64,000 bases of DNA from Gemmatimonadales bacterium. Lineage in GTDB: Bacteria > Gemmatimonadota > Gemmatimonadetes > Palauibacterales > Palauibacteraceae. Below, one piece after another: positions 226 to 12,244 of the stretch (positions are counted from its first letter, which is position 1; the number at the start of each line of letters is the position of its first letter). Made by a program: the position numbers and the translations under genes. The stretch lies in assembly GCA_009840115.1 (NCBI GenBank), contig VXOJ01000032.1, forward strand, positions 1 through 64,000. Reading direction: 5' to 3'. The notes under the pieces were generated by a model. The model was given only the letters and a program-made list of their open reading frames with translations. It made no database searches and was not told where the DNA came from.

Positions 226-555
226 TTGGAACTTGCGTTCGAGTCCCAAGAGATCCGCGCGATATGTGAGCAACAGCACGTCGCAATTGAAGAACTTGGC
301 CCGGTGGTTGCCGCAGCCCTTCAGCGTCGCCTCGCCGACCTCCAAGCTGCCTCATCACCTCTGGACGTACCGCTCGGTCGCCTCCTCCTCTCCAAATCGA
401 CCTCAAGGCCAATCATGGCATTGCCCCTAGTGAACGGACACCGGCTTGTGTTCACTTCGAACCACGTCAACGACCCCGTCACCAGCGCCGGCACTATCGA
501 TCTACAGCACATCACCAGGCTCAGGGTCCTCGGCGTCGAGGTGTGCGATGAATAA
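226..555 (+). CDS. HigB/RelE-like toxin of a type II toxin-antitoxin pair
   Basis: A 109-residue basic/acidic small protein starting at a TTG. Its layout (start MELAFES, a central stretch with A-LQRRLADLQAA, then a beta-rich part with GHRLVF and a final RLRVLGVEV) follows the HigB/ParE/RelE fold found in front of HigA-type antitoxin genes. Family members are ribosome-dependent or free mRNA interferases. The stop overlaps the next start by 8 bases, giving the toxin-first order typical of higBA. An ATG 13 bases upstream is in another frame. Low G+C relative to the rest of the window points to acquisition. The assignment rests on pattern and context, not on visible catalytic residues. Confidence 0.6.
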   Translation: MELAFESQEIRAICEQQHVAIEELGPVVAAALQRRLADLQAASSPLDVPLGRLLLSKSTSRPIMALPLVNGHRLVFTSNHVNDPVTSAGTIDLQHITRLRVLGVEVCDE

Positions 556-1639
556 ACACTCACCGTTCGAGCCTGATTGGACCTCTCCGCCAGGGGATAC
601 GATAGCCGAGATCCTCGCTTCGCGGCGAATGTCCGTAGATGAGCTTGCTCGCAGGGCTGATTGTACATCGGATAGGATTCGTGCAATTATCGAAGGTCGC
701 GCAACGATCACTATCGTTCTTGCCCGACACTTTGAGAAGATCCTTGGTTCTTCTAGAGAGTTCTGGATGTCACGGGACTTCCACTACCGGCAACAGGTGT
801 CTCGGCTCCGTGGAGATCCGGAGGCATGGCTTCGTCAACTCCCCGTCGCCGACATGGTTCGCTTCGGATGGATAACGGCGCCTCCGCACCCCGAGCACGA
901 AGTCGCCACCTGCCTGCAGTTCTTCGATGTTTCTAGCGTGCAGGCGTGGCATACCAAGTATGCTGCAATCCTTGACGAAGCCAATTTTCGACAATCTCGA
1001 ACACTCGAATCGTGGCCGGCGGCGACTGCTGCCTGGTTGCGTCGAGGCGAGATCGAGGCTGACGCCATAGACTGCGCAGGTTGGGATCCTCACGGTTTTC
1101 GACTTGCTCTGCAGGAGGCGAGGAATCTGACGCGACTCAAGGAACCGCGGACCTTTGTCCCTCGGCTACGGGCGCTGTCCGCTGAGCACGGCGTTGCCGT
1201 TACTGTAGTGAGGGCACCGGCAGGCTGCCGCGCCAGCGGTGCTACTCGGTTTGTTTCGAGCGACAAAGCACTGTTACTCCTGAGTTTTCGATACCGTTCT
1301 GACGATCACTTCTGGTTTTCGTTCTTCCACGAAGCTGGCCATCTCCTGTTACACGGCCAACAAGATTGGGTGGTAGAGACAGCTAACGCAGTGTCGGACG
1401 ATCGCGAGCGGGAAGCGAATAGGTTTGCGGAGCAGCTACTGATTCCAGAGAGTCTACAGCAGGAGTTCCGGGAACTTGATGGCAGCCACCGGGCAGTGAT
1501 TCGTTTTGCTCGACGAGCGAGGGTGTCACCTGGAATCGTAGTTGGCCAACTGCAGCATCACGGCCTCATCCCACATTCCACTCTCAACCGACTCAAAAGA
1601 CGGTTCACCTGGGAACAGCTCAGCCACGAAACGGTTTGA
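548..1639 (+). CDS. HigA-type HTH antitoxin fused to ImmA/IrrE zinc metallopeptidase domain
   Basis: 363 residues. Residues about 5-80 are a HigA-like helix-turn-helix domain (SPPGDTIAEILASRRMS, then ELARRADCTSDRIRAIIEG and REFWM). The C-terminal half is an ImmA/IrrE peptidase domain with the zinc motif HEAGH at about residues 261-265 followed by EREANRFAEQLLIP, the usual downstream glutamate region. The ATG at 548 is preferred because the HTH consensus begins immediately after it and it overlaps the toxin stop. Such fusions act as self-contained regulators: the HTH represses the operon and the peptidase may cleave the antitoxin or a partner when triggered. The last 20 bases overlap the end of the convergent gene on the other strand. 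Confidence 0.8.
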   Translation: MNKHSPFEPDWTSPPGDTIAEILASRRMSVDELARRADCTSDRIRAIIEGRATITIVLARHFEKILGSSREFWMSRDFHYRQQVSRLRGDPEAWLRQLPVADMVRFGWITAPPHPEHEVATCLQFFDVSSVQAWHTKYAAILDEANFRQSRTLESWPAATAAWLRRGEIEADAIDCAGWDPHGFRLALQEARNLTRLKEPRTFVPRLRALSAEHGVAVTVVRAPAGCRASGATRFVSSDKALLLLSFRYRSDDHFWFSFFHEAGHLLLHGQQDWVVETANAVSDDREREANRFAEQLLIPESLQQEFRELDGSHRAVIRFARRARVSPGIVVGQLQHHGLIPHSTLNRLKRRFTWEQLSHETV

Positions 1640-2558
1640 ACGTGGCGGGACTCTTGTTCCAATTACACAATGCATCTTCGAGCACCTGAAAGCCAACGTT
1701 CAATGCTCGATTGAGTTCGTCGAGGTATGCTTCGAGGGTTACTGGCGGTATAGGTGCCGTCGGACTACCGTCGAATAGGAGGCGTGCTCCCTGAAGAGGG
1801 CCCGTAGAGTTGGCGAGGTATGCCGAGGATGGGGCTATCTTAGCCAAGTTGAGCTTGCCGATCATCGCCAAGTACTCGAACCTAGCGAGACGACCGAAGC
1901 TGGCCACTGCATCCATGGATTGGTATAACACGTGGAATGCATGGCCCGGGTCACCGTCCGCAGCGTCCAACGCTGCACGCACGCGATTCACGTGATTCCC
2001 TAGCGGAACGATCCAGTCGACATATGTCGCTATCGCCGACCCCGTGCCCTTCAAAGAATAGGCGTCGAGGCTCTGATACTTACGGTGGTTGCCGAATCCA
2101 CCAGAGGATCGTCCGATACGAGCTTGGTTTGCCGCCAACCAAACACGAAAACCATCGGGATTCGCGCTCGTGCTCGCCCAATCCCAGAGATTCTCGGCTC
2201 CAAGTGCTCCGTAGACGTCCCTAAGGTACTGCCATTTGCCGCTCCGGTGTTTTCCGAAGTGAACAAAGAGAAAGACAAGCCAGAATGCTTCGTCGAGATT
2301 GCCCGCTCGTTGGTGAAGAATGGCAGCCCTTAGCGGGTCAAAGAGATCTTCGGAAGGATCGATTCGCCGCGGCGAAATGTCGCCCTCCCGGATTCGCTCA
2401 ACGAACTGGATCCGCCGGCGACTCTCCACAAGCTGCGCTACGAACACCGTCAACGTCTCGCAATCACCAAGACCGGGCAATCTCCGCACATCACGATCAA
2501 AATCGATCAGCGCCTGTCGAAGTTGTCCGGCCGCATCCAGATCCCGTGACCTGATCAA
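1620..2558 (-). CDS. alpha-glutamyl/putrescinyl-thymine pyrophosphorylase clade 3-like protein
   Basis: 312 residues. Recognised from family-typical blocks: AAILHQRAGNLDEAFWLVFL followed by VHFGKH (about 95-120), RDVYGALG, the block FGNHRKYQSLDA (about 165-176), and the tail LEDALCNWNKSP. The family was defined by comparative genomics of phages that make alpha-glutamyl- or alpha-putrescinylthymine: pyrophosphorylated 5-hydroxymethyl-dU in DNA is attacked by an amine with loss of pyrophosphate. Clade 3 members also occur on bacterial chromosomes, where the substrate is not known. The start ATG overlaps the stop of the upstream glycosylase-like gene (ATGA), so the two are translationally coupled. 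No phage structural genes are near. Function in this host is inferred; family membership is judged by eye. Confidence 0.7.
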   Translation of the reverse strand: MIRSRDLDAAGQLRQALIDFDRDVRRLPGLGDCETLTVFVAQLVESRRRIQFVERIREGDISPRRIDPSEDLFDPLRAAILHQRAGNLDEAFWLVFLFVHFGKHRSGKWQYLRDVYGALGAENLWDWASTSANPDGFRVWLAANQARIGRSSGGFGNHRKYQSLDAYSLKGTGSAIATYVDWIVPLGNHVNRVRAALDAADGDPGHAFHVLYQSMDAVASFGRLARFEYLAMIGKLNLAKIAPSSAYLANSTGPLQGARLLFDGSPTAPIPPVTLEAYLDELNRALNVGFQVLEDALCNWNKSPATFKPFRG

Positions 2559-3352
2559 GAGGATGCCCCGCCAAGACCGCGGGCTATCCAGCAGCGAATG
2601 GCATCTCGCGCTCCATTAGTGACTCCAAAACTGCTCTGGAGGTTGTGGTTGAACCCCAGGACGACGATTCGATGGTCGAGACGCGTTTCACCGAGAGTTT
2701 CCACCACACCATGGTAGGCGAAACCAGGGACAACTGAACCATTCTTCCGCGGTAGTGACCAACTTGGCATTTCCTCGGAACTCAGAATAACGTTGAACAC
2801 ATTCTCAAAGTAGGTGACGACTGAGCGTCCGTTCAAGATAAGCACACGAATCGGCGAACCGCGCAACAAACGACTGAGTGCAATGGCGCCCACCTGTAGT
2901 AAAGCAGAACGGTGAGGGGCTGCTAGATGTCCCCATTTACACGACGTCGCATAAGGGACCAGATCCAAATGACAAAGTCCACCGTCACCAAAGTACGAGA
3001 CTCCAGTACCATGCAGAAGACGATCAAGTACACGAAACCAGCGGTTATAGGGATTGCGTTCGAAATACGTGTGACAATACAGAACCATTTCCCGTATGTG
3101 GTGCACATCGACTTCGCCCCAAGAACTAAGCCTCAGTGATGTTAATGTATGAAACCGCCTCGAAGGACCGCCCAGTTCTTTCCCCGCCGGGTCGACGAAT
3201 TCGCGATTGCTTGGGTTCAGTCCTACGGTTGCCACATGCGACTGCATGGGATCGCCAAAAGCCGGCACCGGGCTACTCCACGGGATCACGCCGACATCGT
3301 CGAACGTCTCGGTATCGAGCAAATCAATTAGCGTCACAAACTCTCGATGCAT
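2555..3352 (-). CDS. uracil-DNA glycosylase-fold protein of a putative thymine-modification cassette
   Basis: 265 residues. Shows the UDG superfamily pattern: a strand ending in motif GLNPSNREF (GLNPS at residues 44-48, the place of the water-activating/binding loop), a middle strand HLDLVPYAT, another strand RVLILNGRSV, and a late loop GFNHNLQSS that sits where family enzymes carry the HPS-type motif II. No Fe-S cysteine pattern is seen, unlike family 4/5 enzymes. It may recognise or remove a modified pyrimidine, or simply bind modified bases. It starts one base after the stop of the thymidylate-synthase-like gene and overlaps the pyrophosphorylase-like gene downstream, so all three are probably one transcript. 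Reaction unknown. Confidence 0.6.
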   Translation of the reverse strand: MHREFVTLIDLLDTETFDDVGVIPWSSPVPAFGDPMQSHVATVGLNPSNREFVDPAGKELGGPSRRFHTLTSLRLSSWGEVDVHHIREMVLYCHTYFERNPYNRWFRVLDRLLHGTGVSYFGDGGLCHLDLVPYATSCKWGHLAAPHRSALLQVGAIALSRLLRGSPIRVLILNGRSVVTYFENVFNVILSSEEMPSWSLPRKNGSVVPGFAYHGVVETLGETRLDHRIVVLGFNHNLQSSFGVTNGARDAIRCWIARGLGGASS

Positions 3353-3353
3353 T

Positions 3354-4349
3354 TCATCTCCACGAGTTCAAGTTCTCGTATTGTTCCGCAGCGTCCACGA
3401 GCGACCGTATCTTGCTGTCAAGAAAAGGATAATAGCTCGCGGAGTGGAATGCATCGCGAAGAGCCCGTGCCTCCTCGATGTTCCGGGCCTTATAGATACG
3501 AAGGAAATCGAGGAGCCGAAGCAGGTCACACCAATACGGATCAAGCCCCTTAAGGTCAGATACCGCAAGGGGCTGTCCACGACGACAGGACCGCTCAGCC
3601 TTGAGTAGAGACTTGATCCCAAACCACGGACTACCCTGAGGCATCGACGGCATCGGCTGCGTGGATTGCCAACCTTCGCTGAGAAACTGCTCAGCCATGT
3701 CGCGATGGGATGTGTAGAGATGTAGACTGCCGACGATGTGCTTGTAGGAGCCGAGGTCAATGTTAAGATTGCGGGCGATGATTTCTTGGAGCATGGTGAA
3801 ACAGAACACATCGTGCGGAAGACCAGTATATGCATCGTTTGATCGCATATACGTTAACATATGGAGTAAGCCATCGCGACGTAAGAACTGTATCGTGCAG
3901 GTGCATGGAATGTCGTTGGCCTCAGCGACGAGGTCACTTGCGCGAAACAGCTGGATAACGGCCCGCCGAGAATGGCGATGGCTGCGAAGTCTGTTGAGGA
4001 CATTTGTGATTTGATCATGTCCTTGCTCAGCATGGAGCCGCGGACCATAGGCACCAAAGATGCGGTCATCGTCGGAGAACTGTCTATAGGCAGGTATGTA
4101 ATACTCGATGAAGTGCAGATCGTCGCGACCGGACAGGTACCAGCAGAGTTCGCCAAGGCAGCTGAAGGGCCTTCCCCGCGTCTCTGTGCGGCTCAACCGC
4201 GCGCGGGGATTCTGAAGTTCCAGGAGGACGCCGGTTACTTCTGTTGCCGGCCCCTTGCTAGGCGCAATGTCGACACCGGCGGAGAGGATGTCTTGGAAGA
4301 CGCCGCGTAGCAGGTCGTCTAGCGTAGGAAAGGAGTGCCGATGTTCGAT
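3354..4349 (-). CDS. thymidylate synthase-like pyrimidine C5-methyl/hydroxymethyltransferase
   Basis: Family signatures: NPRARLSRTETRG near the N-terminus, GELCWYLSG, the catalytic-cysteine block IPCTCTIQF, RSNDAYTGLPHDVF and a late GSLHLY. These place it in the ThyA/dUMP-dCMP hydroxymethylase family. The first ATG/GTG/TTG in frame is a TTG at 4196, but it lies inside the conserved block; clearly homologous sequence (FPTLDDLLRGVFQDIL, then EVTGVLLELQ) continues upstream to about 4337. Between the upstream stop and 4196 no ordinary start codon exists, only CTG (4313) or ATC (4349), so a non-standard start or a damaged 5' end is likely; 4349 is given as the outer limit. It heads the cassette and could make a 5-hydroxymethyl or methyl pyrimidine nucleotide for the two genes after it. 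Confidence 0.75.
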   Translation of the reverse strand: MEHRHSFPTLDDLLRGVFQDILSAGVDIAPSKGPATEVTGVLLELQNPRARLSRTETRGRPFSCLGELCWYLSGRDDLHFIEYYIPAYRQFSDDDRIFGAYGPRLHAEQGHDQITNVLNRLRSHRHSRRAVIQLFRASDLVAEANDIPCTCTIQFLRRDGLLHMLTYMRSNDAYTGLPHDVFCFTMLQEIIARNLNIDLGSYKHIVGSLHLYTSHRDMAEQFLSEGWQSTQPMPSMPQGSPWFGIKSLLKAERSCRRGQPLAVSDLKGLDPYWCDLLRLLDFLRIYKARNIEEARALRDAFHSASYYPFLDSKIRSLVDAAEQYENLNSWR

Positions 4350-4414: not shown

Positions 4415-4630
4415 CTACGGTCCGGTAGGCTTGCCCGCGTCACGCTGCTCGTCTTCCCACCGCTTAGCGGCATCGGGGGTCGTTCTGCGGCCGACCTGCT
4501 TGATGTGCCCCTTGCGATCCAACTCACGCTGGTGTTCCTGTTCACGGCGCTCGAGGTCGTTCGTGATCCCTGTATGGATAATCTTGTTCCCGCGCTTGAA
4601 ATGGTACTTATAGGTATCGCGATTCGTCAC
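4415..4630 (-). CDS. small GIY-YIG-like protein
   Basis: 71 residues starting at GTG with a GGAG about 9 bases upstream. It reads YKYHFKRGNKIIHTGITNDL then ERREQEH, which matches the core of compact GIY-YIG domains (Tyr, the GIT in place of YIG, then Arg and a Glu/His-containing helix). The usual catalytic glutamate region is shortened, so nuclease activity is doubtful. It lies upstream of the thymidylate-synthase-like gene on the same strand, about 65 bases before its earliest possible start, and may belong to the same transcript. Confidence 0.6.
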   Translation of the reverse strand: MTNRDTYKYHFKRGNKIIHTGITNDLERREQEHQRELDRKGHIKQVGRRTTPDAAKRWEDEQRDAGKPTGP

Positions 4631-5313: not shown

Positions 5314-5517
5314 TTAGTTGGACTTGTTGTCGGATCCTTCGGATGGCGCAGGGGGAGGCGCCTCTTCTGATGTGGGCTCCACATATCGCTTGGCCGGCTC
5401 GGGAGGTGCAGAGTCCTTCACCGGCGCGGGATCGCCTACTGTATCGCCGCCATACCTAGGCTGGGGTTTCTGCGGCGGTGGCCTCGGCGGCGATTTGTCG
5501 CTTCCCTTCTTTCCCAC
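5314..5517 (-). CDS. small proline-rich acidic protein
   Basis: 67 residues from a GTG that follows a strong GGAGG at 8 bases; that signal lies within the 3' end of the two-TM gene, so the reading frames overlap by about 60 bases and the pair is likely translationally coupled. Composition is SPPRPPPQKPQPRY near the start, then PVKDSAPPEPAKRY and an acidic/Pro tail. It looks disordered. A longer start (ATG at 5541) has no ribosome site. Function unknown; the coupling suggests it works with the membrane protein. Confidence 0.5.
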   Translation of the reverse strand: MGKKGSDKSPPRPPPQKPQPRYGGDTVGDPAPVKDSAPPEPAKRYVEPTSEEAPPPAPSEGSDNKSN

Positions 5518-6043
5518 GATACTTGACCTCCAGCAACTCATGAACGATTCGCGTGGTAGAGCTAAGGAGATCCGAATCGGTTGTCAACCTTGCCTGCTTG
5601 ATCCGCATGTTTAGGTGCCTACCAGCTTCTTCTAGGCGTTCAAAGCGGCGGCGGATCTCCTCGTCATCCGCGCCGTCTTTGTTCAAGTCGGACCAAAGGG
5701 TCTTCGTCTTGCTTGACAACTCCCACAACTCGGGGGTGATTGCGTCTAGCAGCAACCCCTTCTTGAGTGCGTCCTGGACCCACCCGCCGCTGTTCAGAAA
5801 CGCCGCGACGAGTACCGCCACAACGGCTGCGCCGGAGATGATCTCAGCTAGAACACCGGCTTCGATAAGGATGCCCACCGCTCCCAAGACGACGCTGGCG
5901 CCCGACGCAATCCACACCCATTTACGAAATTTGGCGTAAGCCGCGTTCGCCTCCGACGACAACCCGGAGTAGTAGCGAACACTCACCTCCGAATCACGCA
6001 GCCGCTCCCATACATCGTTCCGTGTCTGTGGCGTGGGTTTCAT
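5456..6043 (-). CDS. two-TM membrane protein, SLATT-like
   Basis: 195 residues. An N-terminal amphipathic part (VSVRYYSGLSSEANAAYAKF) is followed by two close membrane segments at about residues 42-60 and 65-83 and then a long charged cytosolic tail with a predicted coiled region (RRRFERLEEAGRHLNMRI). This arrangement is that of SLATT-type effector proteins, which are thought to form pores in nucleotide-signalling defence systems. ATG 6043 is chosen over 6064 because GGGAGG lies 9 bases before it. No sensor nucleotidyltransferase is visible beside it, so a defence role is only suggested by the island context. Confidence 0.5.
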   Translation of the reverse strand: MKPTPQTRNDVWERLRDSEVSVRYYSGLSSEANAAYAKFRKWVWIASGASVVLGAVGILIEAGVLAEIISGAAVVAVLVAAFLNSGGWVQDALKKGLLLDAITPELWELSSKTKTLWSDLNKDGADDEEIRRRFERLEEAGRHLNMRIKQARLTTDSDLLSSTTRIVHELLEVKYRGKEGKRQIAAEATAAETPA

Positions 6044-6458
6044 GATGGCAGCCTCCCGCCTCAAGCCGAACCGAAACCTTTACCGATCTTTATCATGTTA
6101 GCGGGCGGCTGGATGGCGCAAACGACGCGGCACAGGAGAACCGCACCTCGCGCGGAACTAGGCCTGCGGGTCCGGTCCGCCGTGCTCCCGCCTCTACCTG
6201 CCGCTCCACCGCCTCGACGATCCTGCATATCAGGTACACCGCCCGCACACCAGAGGCGGTCCAAACACGGCGACGGCAAGGCTGAGCCACATGACGTTGC
6301 CGTTCGCGCTCTCTGCCGACAAGGCGAAAGCGCCGATCCCACCGCTGACTAGCCTGTCCTGATTCGGAGATGGCGCGACAAAGACGGATACCCCTGTGGG
6401 ATCGAAGTCTGAGCAAGGATGGCCGGACCACGGGAGCAACACCATGACCTAGGGGGAC
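6044..6458. other. gene-poor stretch at the edge of the accessory island
   Basis: No frame in this stretch shows a plausible protein. Short hydrophobic scraps on the minus strand around 6230-6445 (LAVAVFGPPLV) could be remains of a membrane protein but have no usable start or continuity. Confidence 0.4.
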
Positions 6459-8520: not shown

Positions 8521-9003
8521 TTAGTGCTCGTGCACGTGCACGTGGAGGGGTGCGGTGACGAAATCGGCGTGTCCCGACCCGACCGCGCCGTGCATGAGGC
8601 TGAAGGTCAGTTCGGTATCACCTTCCGCCACTCCGTGCAGGTGTCCTCCGAACTCGCCGGGAGTGTCCTGCTCGAACTCGGCGACGGACTCGTTCGCGAC
8701 GTCCACCCGCAGGTAGAAGTCACTGCCGAGCGAGACCGCGTGCCCGTCGTGGTCTGTGAACTGCACGTTGATGTGGGCGGTTTCCTCGCCCGGCTCGACC
8801 TCGAGTTCTCCGGTCCACGCGCCATCGTGTCCGTCATAGGACGCGACGGTCTGGCCGCTGAGCGACAGGGTCACGCCCTCGACTTCGTCGGCGTGAAAGT
8901 CGTCGTCCATGGGGTCCATGGGGTCGTCGCCGCCGCAGGCGCCAAGGATCAGCAGTCCCGCCGTCGCCAGGACGAGTGGCAGTTTCCGTTGAAGATGTCT
9001 CAC
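8521..9003 (-). CDS. His-rich lipoprotein, putative metal-binding
   Basis: 160 residues from GTG 9003, which has GAGGTGAG just upstream. A lipoprotein signal ends in the lipobox LGAC (Cys about 21), then an acidic linker DPMDPMDDD. The body carries many His pairs (DGHDG, DHDGH, GHLHG, MHG, GSGHADF) and the extreme C-terminus is HVHVHEH. That distribution suggests binding of Zn, Cu or Ni at the cell surface or in the periplasm. The beta-rich body resembles an immunoglobulin-like fold (LSLSGQTVASY, INVQFTDHDG). The 73-base gap to the hydrolase gene leaves co-transcription open. No named family recognised. Confidence 0.65.
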   Translation of the reverse strand: MRHLQRKLPLVLATAGLLILGACGGDDPMDPMDDDFHADEVEGVTLSLSGQTVASYDGHDGAWTGELEVEPGEETAHINVQFTDHDGHAVSLGSDFYLRVDVANESVAEFEQDTPGEFGGHLHGVAEGDTELTFSLMHGAVGSGHADFVTAPLHVHVHEH

Positions 9004-9215: not shown

Positions 9216-9476
9216 ATGAAACAGCTCACCGTTAGAGGCCTCGGGGACGATCTGACCGGGGCGATTCGCCGCTTGGCGAACCGCGACGGCACATCGCTCA
9301 ACCGAGCCGCCGTCAAACTGCTGCGCCGGGGGGCGGGGCTGGAGGGCAGACAGGCGGCCGACGCGGTCGGGTCGTCGCTGGATTGCTTCATCGGCTCCTG
9401 GAGCGACGCGGAGGCGGACGAGACCGAACGGGCGCTCAGGCACTTCGAGACGATCGACGAGGCCATGTGGGATTGA
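9216..9476 (+). CDS. vapB: VapB/FitA-like ribbon-helix-helix antitoxin
   Basis: 86 residues. Start MKQLTVRGLGDDLTGAIRRL, then RDGTSLNRAAVKLLRRGAG: a beta strand followed by two helices, the ribbon-helix-helix DNA-binding unit, with a C-terminal acidic toxin-wrapping part (ADETERALRHFETIDEAMWD). GGGA 7 bases before the ATG. Its stop overlaps the toxin start by 4 bases (TTGA). It should neutralise the downstream PIN toxin and repress the operon. Confidence 0.8.
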   Translation: MKQLTVRGLGDDLTGAIRRLANRDGTSLNRAAVKLLRRGAGLEGRQAADAVGSSLDCFIGSWSDAEADETERALRHFETIDEAMWD

Positions 9477-9862
9477 GGGTGCTGCTCGACTCGAACGCTT
9501 ATGTGCAGCTCATGCGGGGGAGCGAGAAGGTAGCCGGGATCGTGCGGAGAGCCGAGGAGGTTCTGCTGTCGACGGTCGTGCTCGGCGAACTGCTGTACGG
9601 CTTCCGCTACGGCTCGCGCTACGAGCGCAACGCCCGCGCGCTGCGCGCCTTCCTCGACAATCCCTACGTCACCGTCGTCCCGGTCGATAAGACCACGGCC
9701 GACCGGTACTCGAGAATCGCGGCGGCTCTGCGTGCAAAGGGCCGCCCGATCCCCACCAACGATATCTGGATCGCCGCCCACGCCATGCAGACGGGAGCCG
9801 ACCTGGTGTCGGCCGACCGCCACTTCGAGCACGTGGAAGGCATCGCCTGGGTCCGCCTCTAG
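9473..9862 (+). CDS. vapC: PIN-domain toxin, VapC family
   Basis: 129 residues from TTG 9473 (GTG 9479 is an alternative). PIN acidic residues are in place: LLDSNAYVQLM (first Asp, residue about 5), STVVLGELLYG (Glu), IPTNDIWIAAHAM (Asp) and LVSADRHFEHV (last Asp). Mg-dependent endoribonuclease that in known cases cuts tRNA or rRNA when the antitoxin is lost. Overlaps the antitoxin gene by 4 bases. Confidence 0.85.
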   Translation: MRVLLDSNAYVQLMRGSEKVAGIVRRAEEVLLSTVVLGELLYGFRYGSRYERNARALRAFLDNPYVTVVPVDKTTADRYSRIAAALRAKGRPIPTNDIWIAAHAMQTGADLVSADRHFEHVEGIAWVRL

Positions 9863-9886
9863 CCGCGGCGGGGCCTTGGCGACGAT

Positions 9887-12244
9887 TCAGCTTGCCGGCA
9901 CCAGCGGCCATACGAGCGGGAGCACGGTCAGGACCACCGCCATGACCAGGACGAACAGCGGGAATCCCGCCTTGATGAAGTCGACGAACCGGTATCCTCC
10001 GAAACCCATCACCAGCAGGTTCACCGGGTGTCCCACCGGACTCATGAAGGCGCAGGAACTCGCGACCGCCACCGTCATCATCAGCGCCTGGGGCGAGAGC
10101 CCTTCGCTGACGGCCGTGCTGAGCGCGATGGGAGACATGAGGACCGCCACCGCCGCCGTCGGCATCATCTGAGCTGAGAGGGCGGTGATCAGGAAGAGTC
10201 CCGCCACCACCGCCAGCGGACCGAAGTCCGCCAGCGACCCCAGCACCGCTTCGGCCACCAGCGCGGCGGTTCCGGATTCCTGCATGGCCATTCCCAGGCT
10301 GAGCATCCCCGCGATCAGGACCACCGCCTTCATCTCGATGCACCGATAGGCCTCTTCGATGTTGAGACAGCCCGTCAGCACCATCAGCACCGCTCCGATC
10401 GGCGCCGCGATGAAGATCGGCAGCAGGCCCGAGACGACCGAGGTCAGGACGCCCGCCATGATCAGGGCGCTGACCGGAGCCTTCCCGCTTCGCACCACCT
10501 CCGCCGCTCCCTCGGTCATGACGAGGAAGTCCGGGTGATCCGCCAGGAGCGCGAGCTTGCTCCTGTCGCCGTGAAGCAGGAACGCATCGCCCGGGAGCAG
10601 TTCCATGCGCCGGAGCCCGCTGCGGTAGATTTCTCCGTTCCGCCATATCGCGAGGATGGAGACGCCGAAGGTTTTTCGGAACTTGAGTTCCTCGATCGTC
10701 TTCCCGGCGAACGTCGTGCGTGGAGACAGCGAAGCCTCCGCCAGGCCGACGGTGTCGGACTCCAGTCCGCTCACGTCCAGGGGACGATTGTCGCCCACGG
10801 TCAGCTCCTGAAGCCCCTCCAGGATCTCGAGATCCTCGAATCGCCCCCGGAGCAGGAGGATGTCCCCTCCCTCGAGTCTCGTATCCGGATCCGGCATGAG
10901 AAGCTCTTCATGGGCCCGCAGGATGCCGACGACGGTCAGGCCGAATGCATCGGCCAGCCGGGTTTCCGCGAGCAACTGACCGGCCAGCAGCGATTCTTCC
11001 GAGATTCTGACACTCTGAATCCTGCGTTCCATCTGGTAGCGGGAGATCAGTTCTCCTGCCGGCACGGAATGGACCGCTCCGAGGGTCCCGTCCTCCTCCA
11101 GTGCGGCGAGGCGCCCGCTCTTCGCCGCGACCAGCAGGCGATCGCCCGGAGCGAGCGTCATCGACCGCAGTCCCGTGCGGCGTACCTGCTCGCCGCGCAG
11201 AATCGCGAGTACGTGCAGGCGACGAGTCCGGCGCAGGTTCGCCTTTTGAACGGTCTGCCCGATGAGCGACGAATCTTCCGGCAACTCCAGTTCCGCCACC
11301 TCGATGGAGGCATCGGCGATCCGCTCCAGCGTCCGGTCTCTCGACTCGATCTGCAGGTGCTTCCATGCGCGCAGGGCTTCGAACCGTTCCAGGGTTCCTT
11401 CGACCACCATCTCGTCTCCCCCGCTCAGCACGAAGTCCGTCCCGGGAGCGAGGATCATCTCCCCGCTGCGCTGCACGGCGACCACGTTGAGGCCCAGGGC
11501 CTGGCCCAACCGGCTCTGCTGCAGCGTCTTGCCTGCGAGGGTCGAATGGGCGGGGGCTTGCAGGATGCCGATCAGGCCGCGCAGGTCGTAGAGCCCCCCG
11601 AGGTCCGCGGGAGCCGATTCCTTCTTCGGATCCCGGTCCGGGAACAGGCGCCGCCCGAGGAAGGTCATGTAGACGATGCCGACGGCGAGCGCGGTCAGCC
11701 CGACGGGCGTGAACGAGAACATCCCGAACGGCTCGAACCCGGCATCCTGTAACGCCCCGTTCACGAGGATGTTCGGCGCCGTGCCGATCAGGGTCGTCAT
11801 CCCGCCGAGCAGGGATCCGAAGGCGAGGGGCATGAGCAGCTTGGAGGGCGGCGTCCCGGTGCGGCGGGCCATGTCCAGCACCACGGGCAGCATTAGGGCG
11901 GTGATCCCGATGTCGTTCATGATGCCCGACAGGAGGCCCACCGTGGCCATCATCACCGCGATGAGGCGGCCGACGCCATCGCCCGATGCCGCCAGCACCC
12001 GCTGCCCGATGAAATGAGCCACCCCGGTCCGCATGAGCGCGCCGCTCAGGACCAGGACCGAAGCGATCGTGATGACCGCTTCGTTGGCGAACCCCATGAT
12101 CGCCGCCTCGCCCTCGAGGATGCCCGTCACGACGAGTCCGAGCATCACCATCAACGCGACGAGATCCACCCGGATCTTCTCGGTGACGAACAGAACCACC
12201 GCGACCAGAAGGATCCCCCCAACGACGAACACCTCGAAGTTCAT
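9887..12244 (-). CDS. SLC13-type permease with four RCK_C (TrkA-C) domains
   Basis: 785 residues. N-terminal block of membrane segments (1-about 205) with the family pattern ASVLVLSGALMRTG, SGIMNDIGITALMLPVV and IGTAPN, a long cytosolic insert (about 215-540), then a second membrane block (about 555-785) ending in HPVNLLVMGFGGY. The insert holds four RCK_C units, each starting like LAGKTLQQSRL or FAGKTIEELKF and ending in a strand with GGD/PGD. Two units are usual in this family (SAC1-like sulfate and dicarboxylate/sodium transporters). RCK_C domains sense a small ligand and gate transport. Cargo cannot be assigned; sulfate or another divalent anion is likely. Confidence 0.8.
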   Translation of the reverse strand: MNFEVFVVGGILLVAVVLFVTEKIRVDLVALMVMLGLVVTGILEGEAAIMGFANEAVITIASVLVLSGALMRTGVAHFIGQRVLAASGDGVGRLIAVMMATVGLLSGIMNDIGITALMLPVVLDMARRTGTPPSKLLMPLAFGSLLGGMTTLIGTAPNILVNGALQDAGFEPFGMFSFTPVGLTALAVGIVYMTFLGRRLFPDRDPKKESAPADLGGLYDLRGLIGILQAPAHSTLAGKTLQQSRLGQALGLNVVAVQRSGEMILAPGTDFVLSGGDEMVVEGTLERFEALRAWKHLQIESRDRTLERIADASIEVAELELPEDSSLIGQTVQKANLRRTRRLHVLAILRGEQVRRTGLRSMTLAPGDRLLVAAKSGRLAALEEDGTLGAVHSVPAGELISRYQMERRIQSVRISEESLLAGQLLAETRLADAFGLTVVGILRAHEELLMPDPDTRLEGGDILLLRGRFEDLEILEGLQELTVGDNRPLDVSGLESDTVGLAEASLSPRTTFAGKTIEELKFRKTFGVSILAIWRNGEIYRSGLRRMELLPGDAFLLHGDRSKLALLADHPDFLVMTEGAAEVVRSGKAPVSALIMAGVLTSVVSGLLPIFIAAPIGAVLMVLTGCLNIEEAYRCIEMKAVVLIAGMLSLGMAMQESGTAALVAEAVLGSLADFGPLAVVAGLFLITALSAQMMPTAAVAVLMSPIALSTAVSEGLSPQALMMTVAVASSCAFMSPVGHPVNLLVMGFGGYRFVDFIKAGFPLFVLVMAVVLTVLPLVWPLVPAS

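Follow-up and report, generated by a model that had tools for sequence, protein, structure and literature searches.

The stretch analysed here, 64,000 nucleotides of contig VXOJ01000032.1 from a Gemmatimonadales bacterium (assembly GCA_009840115.1) and referred to below as the window, carries near one end a compact cassette of five genes (Table 1). Three of them had been singled out in an earlier note on this DNA as coupled minus-strand genes, for a thymidylate-synthase-like (TS-like) protein, a protein with the uracil-DNA glycosylase (UDG) fold and a member of clade 3 of the alpha-glutamyl/putrescinyl-thymine pyrophosphorylase family (aGPT-Pplase3, hereafter aGPT3). These genes are real and were correctly placed, and a one-base gap does separate the TS-like and UDG genes; the second junction, however, is a TTGA overlap rather than the ATGA reported, the aGPT3 gene starting at TTG. 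The three-gene extent was right as far as it went, but it left out the other half of the unit, which reaches to position 226: a gene in which an XRE helix-turn-helix (HTH) is fused to an ImmA/IrrE peptidase (XRE-ImmA) lies tail to tail with the aGPT3 gene, the two overlapping by 20 bp, and a small open reading frame (ORF) overlaps its start. The start of the TS-like gene is uncertain: the first ATG, GTG or TTG in frame is the TTG at 4196, the conserved N-terminus lies outside that start, and the 331-residue reading requires ATC at 4349.

Table 1. The five genes of the cassette, their predicted roles and the evidence for them (dCMP, deoxycytidine monophosphate; 5hmC, 5-hydroxymethylcytosine; dC, deoxycytidine; HhH, helix-hairpin-helix).
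Positions	Strand	Gene and prediction	Evidence
3354..4349	-	TS-like gene, predicted dCMP 5-hydroxymethylase (MilA/T4 gp42 type)	Pfam, PDB profile match to MilA, D180/S170/R128
2555..3352	-	UDG-fold gene, predicted 5hmC-DNA glycosylase, accessory	AlphaFold2 fold, Brig3-like residues
1620..2558	-	aGPT-Pplase3/ADDT-family gene, predicted hydroxymethyl-dC-processing enzyme, HhH-glycosylase-like fold, TTG start	Pfam, model, fold, profile comparison
548..1639	+	XRE HTH fused to ImmA/IrrE (M78) peptidase, convergent partner, PD-Lambda-2_B-like	Pfam, PADLOC, HigA-type HTH, HExxH/Glu287
226..555	+	Small 109-aa ORF, possibly HigB/RelE-like	Conservation, weak HigB profile match

Relatives of the cassette were collected by way of aGPT3, giving 88 loci: the window, 7 plasmid loci (of 8 plasmid matches) and 80 loci on genome contigs, taken as the top 80 among 200 relatives. 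The presence of aGPT3 in all 88 is thus a matter of selection; of the other genes, those for the TS-like protein and XRE-ImmA each occur at 86 loci and the small ORF at 83, and the UDG gene is found at 33. The order TS, (UDG), aGPT3, followed by the convergent ImmA and small-ORF pair, is kept at 80 loci, 51 without the UDG gene and 29 with it, the other eight being order variants or incomplete. The gap between the convergent aGPT3 and ImmA genes has a median of 0 bp and is no more than 30 bp in 80 of 86 cases. Because the same order recurs in genome contigs of seven phyla (Pseudomonadota, Acidobacteriota, Actinomycetota, Chloroflexota, Bacteroidota, Planctomycetota and Myxococcota) and on plasmids, the association is not due to chance and the five genes form one unit; the supposition that the neighbours keep company in other genomes was sound. 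On a tree of aGPT3 (86 rows) the presence of the UDG gene changes 10 times, and this gene has therefore often been gained or lost.

Within the window's own phylum the aGPT3 family was found in one of 395 genomes, that of the window itself. Escherichia coli is another matter: the TS-like, aGPT3 and XRE-ImmA genes occur together with a gene annotated as MazG-like, over at least 80% of the query, in 226 of 5,426 genomes, nearly all of these copies being at least 99% identical. Two E. coli loci, L159 and L160 (the latter in strain SCU-152), both lie near type I restriction genes, and one also adjoins an integrase and tRNA-Sec; the small ORF is present in L159 though unannotated. The 87-aa protein annotated as MazG-like stands beside both cassettes (8631-8894 in each), its L159 copy having no Pfam match at 0.01. 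A phage origin was considered and rejected, since aGPT3 gave no tblastn match at E≤0.01 in 50,697 phage records; a second member of the family gave none there at E≤1, and a scan of IMG/VR for aGPT3 found no relative.

The TS-like product is assigned by Pfam to Thymidylat_synt (4e-26), as the earlier note had it, but its profile finds in the PDB the cytidine monophosphate (CMP) 5-hydroxymethylase MilA at 6e-67 over most of its length, the best thymidylate synthase reaching 1e-29. In the account given in the MilA paper, Asp serves in recognition of cytosine and Asn of uracil, Ser with Arg specifies deoxyribose, and Ala with Lys ribose (PMC5175136). In the TS-like family Asp180, Ser170, Arg128 and the catalytic C149 are invariant among 32 aligned members; in the wider set the MRSND motif, which holds the Ser and the Asp, is found in 85 of 86 proteins, a loose pattern for the catalytic Cys in all 86, and Arg at position 128 in 70, the window's protein included. 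At the aligned base-recognition position the residue is Asp in T4 gp42 and Asn in SPO1 gp29, PaMx11 gp51 and E. coli ThyA; the Asn common to thymidylate synthases and dUMP (deoxyuridine monophosphate) hydroxymethylases is not what the TS-like protein has there. The thymine/uracil frame in which the cassette had been placed does not fit an enzyme that has Asp for Asn and a cytidylate hydroxymethylase as its nearest solved relative. Housekeeping synthesis of thymidylate was rejected as its role, the window's genome having ThyX and no other ThyA. From its kinship to MilA, its Asp/Ser/Arg code and the ThyX of its genome, the TS-like protein is very probably a dCMP 5-hydroxymethylase, in so far as sequence can predict it.

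The UDG-fold product was harder to place. It matched no Pfam family above cut-off, giving chance matches only, and PF03167 (UDG) was not among them; this model matched 1 of 32 members of its family, at E 0.2, and a PDB profile search with the family's sequences found no UDG. Its AlphaFold2 model (mean predicted local distance difference test score, pLDDT, 93.1), in contrast, matches thymine-DNA glycosylase in Foldseek at 1.9e-5 and the family-4 UDG 4zby in VIA with a Z of 14.2 (3.3 Å over 181 residues). The earlier assignment of the 265-residue protein to the UDG superfamily is thus upheld by fold, though not by sequence profile, and it is the modelled fold, with the motif described next, that argues for membership. 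Brig3, an anti-phage glycosylase of this superfamily recovered from soil DNA, excises 5hmC, and its preprint names as residues N50-P51-S52, E55 (which binds the hydroxymethyl of 5hmC), Y97/W100/F101 and H125/D127 (PMC13160076). The UDG-fold family has N46-P47-S48, E51, Y102/W105/F106 and H128/D130, invariant in 32 of 32, and a looser set of these motifs together with a C-terminal NHN.Q.S loop in 33 of 33. Spacing is identical to that of Brig3 inside all three residue groups, and between the groups differs by a few residues. Compared with Brig3 in this way, by residue number and spacing, the protein is a probable 5hmC glycosylase. Outside cassettes, a search of 97 genomes related to that of L025 (Sorangium cellulosum) matched Brig3-like UDG genes in two, L025 itself and one other. 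A predicted maker and a predicted remover, reached by two independent lines, both point to hydroxymethylcytosine: this is the main new result.

The 312-residue aGPT3 protein belongs where it had been put, with Pfam matches to aGPT-Pplase3 (PF18746) at 1.3e-101 (340 bits) and to ADDT, the amino acid:DNA transferases (PF18724), at 1.7e-66. The founding papers on the aGPT-Pplases are reportedly those of Iyer in 2013 and Burroughs in 2015. Compared with the PDB in VIA, the aGPT3 model (pLDDT 96.2) is best matched by the 5-phosphomethyl-deoxyuridine (5-phosphomethyl-dU) glycinyltransferase of PaMx11, with Z 11.0 and 4.2 Å over 218 residues. HhH DNA glycosylases follow, the highest at Z 9.3, and then DUF2419, a protein of queuine salvage, at Z 9.2; values of Z below about 13 are modest for helical proteins. 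Its best match among viral models is an ADDT (5e-5). Profile comparison with seven phage transferases gave E 1.1e-5 and a probability of 82%, with a shared C-terminal E-x-x-L-C-x-W motif; with the PaMx11 protein singly the match was weak (probability 3%), and a profile search of the PDB by sequence gave nothing useful. Opposite Lys150, invariant in the phage enzymes, at least 90% of the aGPT3 family has Asp, and the window's protein Glu. The phage route also employs a 5-hydroxymethyl-deoxyuridine (5-hmdU) DNA kinase (PF18723), and this kinase, other kinases not being sought, is absent from 13 of 14 cassette genomes while both control phages were positive. The one match, in Paraburkholderia xenovorans LB400 (L158), is chromosomal and about 2.5 Mb from the cassette, scoring 380 bits, where the two control phages score 141 and 190. 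The window's genome is among the 13, in keeping with the earlier observation that no such kinase was recognisable, and the conclusion then drawn, of a chemistry unlike that of the phages, was right. The phage reaction as known is therefore unlikely for aGPT3, which would be left as a glycosylase or as a kinase-free transferase, acting on hydroxymethyl-dC.

The convergent half of the cassette may be a toxin-antitoxin-like module. The HExxH and distal Glu287 of the XRE-ImmA peptidase are invariant in 24 of 24 proteins, its HTH is HigA-like, and PADLOC places it with component B of PD-lambda-2 (5.1e-23). For the small ORF, a weak HigB profile match was obtained with 1 of 25 proteins and PADLOC gave one weak match, to DpdC; profile search found no PDB relative, and its position fits component A. 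The XRE-ImmA protein of PD-lambda-2 is described as toxic alone and its toxicity as rescued by a HigB-like protein (PMC9519451).

Genes flanking the cassette were compared with others from the same hosts: 145 chosen at random from 541 neighbours of suitable length (574 in total, from 80 loci), and 145 of 223 control genes (240 in total) from 20 stretches, one per genome, at hand-picked positions in 20 of the same genomes; rpsB loci were judged too conserved to serve and these stretches were used instead. At a best E of ≤5e-26, PADLOC recognised 25 families under 11 names among the neighbours, including restriction enzymes, AbiEii, SduA, reverse-transcriptase systems and MkoA, and 4 families under 4 names among the controls, two of these being DndA and SspA, whose models presumably also catch housekeeping cysteine desulfurases. 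Enrichment of defence genes around the cassette is a trend only.

Other genes recur close by. Of the 88 loci, 18 have a DUF4031 (PF13223) gene next to the cassette (L023, L027, L028, L032, L033, L035, L039, L040, L050, L052 and 8 more), directly upstream of the TS-like gene in 13; does this domain act in the same chemistry? A NUDIX gene adjoins the cassette in 4 loci, and like the MazG-like gene could be a supplier of dCMP. At one locus, L025, which departs from the usual convergent order, a gene with a sub-threshold match to nucleoside 2-deoxyribosyltransferase (PF05014, 0.0021) lies at 9528-10070, with aGPT3 on one side and the small ORF on the other. In the window, a 71-aa ORF with a GTG start (4415-4630, minus strand) lies upstream of the TS-like gene, GIY-YIG-like by eye only; 1.1 kb from the cassette, 5456-6064 (minus strand) gives a sub-threshold match (5e-4, 20.2 bits against a cut-off of 27) to SLATT_4, a defence-associated effector domain; and the interval 9216-9862 (plus strand) holds a PIN-domain toxin (5e-20), preceded by an ORF at 9216-9476 with a sub-threshold match to a ribbon-helix-helix antitoxin.

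The cassette's setting, mobility and kinship make defence likely, and we see it as a mobile element, present in many phyla and in some E. coli, that probably protects against phage; defence, already a candidate function in the earlier note, is retained. Its architecture, specificity residues, two modelled protein folds and, at some loci, defence-gene neighbours are direct observations, from which we infer defence and the following make-and-excise chemistry. The TS-like enzyme would convert dCMP to 5-hydroxymethyl-dCMP with methylene-tetrahydrofolate, a step for which the case is strong. The product may then enter the deoxynucleoside triphosphate pool and be incorporated into replicating DNA, chiefly that of the phage if the cassette acts on infection; this step is weak because there is no kinase among the five genes. 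Where encoded, the UDG-fold enzyme, judging by its Brig3 residues, would flip out and excise 5hmC, leaving abasic sites. The fold of aGPT3 and the missing phage kinase suggest a second enzyme processing hydroxymethyl-dC, either a glycosylase or a transferase able to act without the phosphorylated base. The small ORF and XRE-ImmA might form a PD-lambda-2-related, toxin-antitoxin-like controller, keeping the enzymes off or adding an abortive arm. As a whole, this chain, a mobile anti-phage cassette that makes and excises 5-hydroxymethylcytosine, is advanced tentatively, with rather less than an even chance of being right in every link. In its boldest form, an immune system would forge its own target, making 5-hydroxymethyl-dCMP upon infection and forcing 5hmC into replicating phage DNA so that its own glycosylases make every such base abasic; we regard this as doubtful, though if true such forged-mark immunity would act on phages with ordinary DNA, and loss of base modification would give them no escape.

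Several observations weigh against this scheme. The greatest weakness is that the Brig3-like gene is optional: it is absent from 55 of 88 loci, so excision by the UDG-fold enzyme is not the core function and aGPT3 would have to carry the essential step. For aGPT3 itself none of the Foldseek matches in the PDB was significant (E 0.56 for the best relevant one), and a Z of 11 is modest for an all-helical model. The likeness to Brig3 consists of residue numbers and spacing rather than an alignment, the between-group distances differ, and Brig3 R53 has no counterpart in the family. Six of the 86 TS-like proteins carry Lys at position 128, the residue of the enzyme that prefers CMP, and in 10 the search pattern was unmatched. 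The cassette genes include no hydroxymethyl-dCMP kinase, the flanks not having been searched for one. Host CMP kinases probably use hydroxymethyl-dCMP poorly. There is no support for XRE-ImmA controlling the enzyme genes directly: a search of 80 loci for an operator common to the small-ORF and TS promoters found none, the mean best match being 8.87, as compared with 8.85 for shuffled sequence. Finally, at E≤1e-10 PADLOC found 57 families in the neighbours and 10 in the controls (145 proteins each), figures that overstate the difference: of the 25 neighbour families displayed, 10 represent a single family of kinases (PD-T4-6), and the 25 reduce to 11 names against 10 control names. This recount weakens the neighbourhood evidence, and with it our confidence in defence, in the make-and-excise chain and in the forged-mark form of that chain.

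The optional UDG gene is accounted for if the cassette depletes nucleotides or makes an antimetabolite. The TS-like enzyme would drain dCMP and aGPT3 hydrolyse 5-hydroxymethyl-dCMP to base and deoxyribose phosphate, as MilB follows MilA on CMP; dC nucleotides would be exhausted and infection aborted, the UDG-fold protein serving to clear hydroxymethylcytosine from host DNA. MilA is the closest solved relative of the TS-like protein and MilB cleaves hydroxymethyl-CMP (PMC4081090). The match of aGPT3 to DUF2419 at Z 9.2 has the same bearing. DUF2419 acts on a nucleotide. The NUDIX genes of four loci and the sub-threshold deoxyribosyltransferase of L025 would also suit such a scheme, but the latter is found at 1 locus of 88, and the fold of aGPT3 is closer to a DNA-acting transferase of its own Pfam family (Z 11.0). 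We consider depletion unlikely.

Unlikelier still is self-marking, in which a hypermodified base derived from 5hmC would be built into host or element DNA and shield mobile DNA from restriction; aGPT3 would attach the group, and incomplete bases would be taken out by the UDG-fold enzyme. It draws on the ADDT/aGPT membership of aGPT3, by Pfam and, tentatively, by fold, and on the occurrence of cassettes on plasmids and islands. A kinase is missing from the five genes, though, as is PF18723 from all but one of the 14 cassette genomes, no nuclease is found among the genes conserved across the 88 loci, and the host's own intermediates would be exposed to the Brig3-like glycosylase encoded in that operon.

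The earlier note had also offered the glycosylase as a sensor of modified phage bases. Recast for cytosine, UDG and aGPT3 would attack hydroxymethylated phage DNA in the manner of Brig1 and Brig3, with the TS-like protein secondary, for example as maker of an XRE-ImmA ligand. The Brig3-like residues and the defence genes beside some cassettes accord with this, and for the UDG gene taken singly it is possible; but it leaves unexplained why the TS-like gene is present in 86 of 88 loci and the UDG gene in so few, and a self-made source of 5hmC would endanger the host. We judge it improbable. As for the original thymine route, in which the TS-like protein makes hydroxymethyl-dUMP, aGPT3 adds a side chain to thymine and the glycosylase acts on it, the family names and a distant homology to phage enzymes speak for it, but with Asp in place of Asn in 85 of 86 proteins and the 5-hmdU DNA kinase so generally missing it is very improbable.

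Phages are known to use base hypermodification as a weapon, and base excision has recently emerged as a bacterial reply. A widespread mobile cassette of cellular genomes that encodes a predicted dCMP hydroxymethylase, joined at a third of the loci by a predicted 5hmC glycosylase, would unite modification and excision in a single system and would bring clade 3 of the aGPT-Pplases into cytosine chemistry. The question can be put directly in laboratory E. coli, because near-complete copies occur in 226 of 5,426 genomes of the species. In a full-text literature search, outside which most subscription papers lie, we recognised no publication that describes the cassette as a unit or assigns it to cytosine; nor does it appear in the available text of a study of cytosine modification in viral metagenomes (PMC8670742).

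How, then, does the cassette compare with known systems? As reported in its available text, DefensePredictor includes an aGPT-Pplase system predicted to be defensive though not validated, and a separate, validated one with a thymidylate synthase domain (PMC13092281); the same domains are thus named as defensive, but the text proposes no chemistry for them, and our comparison is with that text, not with the gene content of its Fig. 6F. PD-lambda-2 shares the arrangement of a small ORF followed by an XRE-ImmA fusion; it differs in having a third gene, related to P4 antitoxin, and its description, as available, does not place it with nucleotide enzymes (PMC9519451). The phage amino acid:DNA transferases PaMx11 gp46 and M6 gp51 resemble aGPT3 in Pfam family (ADDT, for PaMx11 gp46), C-terminal motif and, tentatively, fold, but keep a Lys150 where aGPT3 has Asp or Glu, and the substrate of the PaMx11 enzyme is 5-phosphomethyl-dU, prepared by a kinase that 13 of 14 cassette genomes lack. 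Brig1, like the UDG-fold protein, is best matched in fold by a family-4 UDG from archaea, and Brig3 shares with that protein the UDG fold and the Asn-Pro-Ser..Glu, Tyr..TrpPhe and His-x-Asp residues; in the preprint the partner of Brig3 is a deglucosylase, BapA, not a hydroxymethylase (PMC13160076). MilA and T4 gp42 share with the TS-like protein its family, the catalytic Cys and the Asp for cytosine. MilA prefers CMP (Ala/Lys) and serves antibiotic synthesis; T4 gp42 has the same Ser and Arg for deoxyribose as the TS-like protein, but is phage-borne and adjoins a glucosyltransferase gene.

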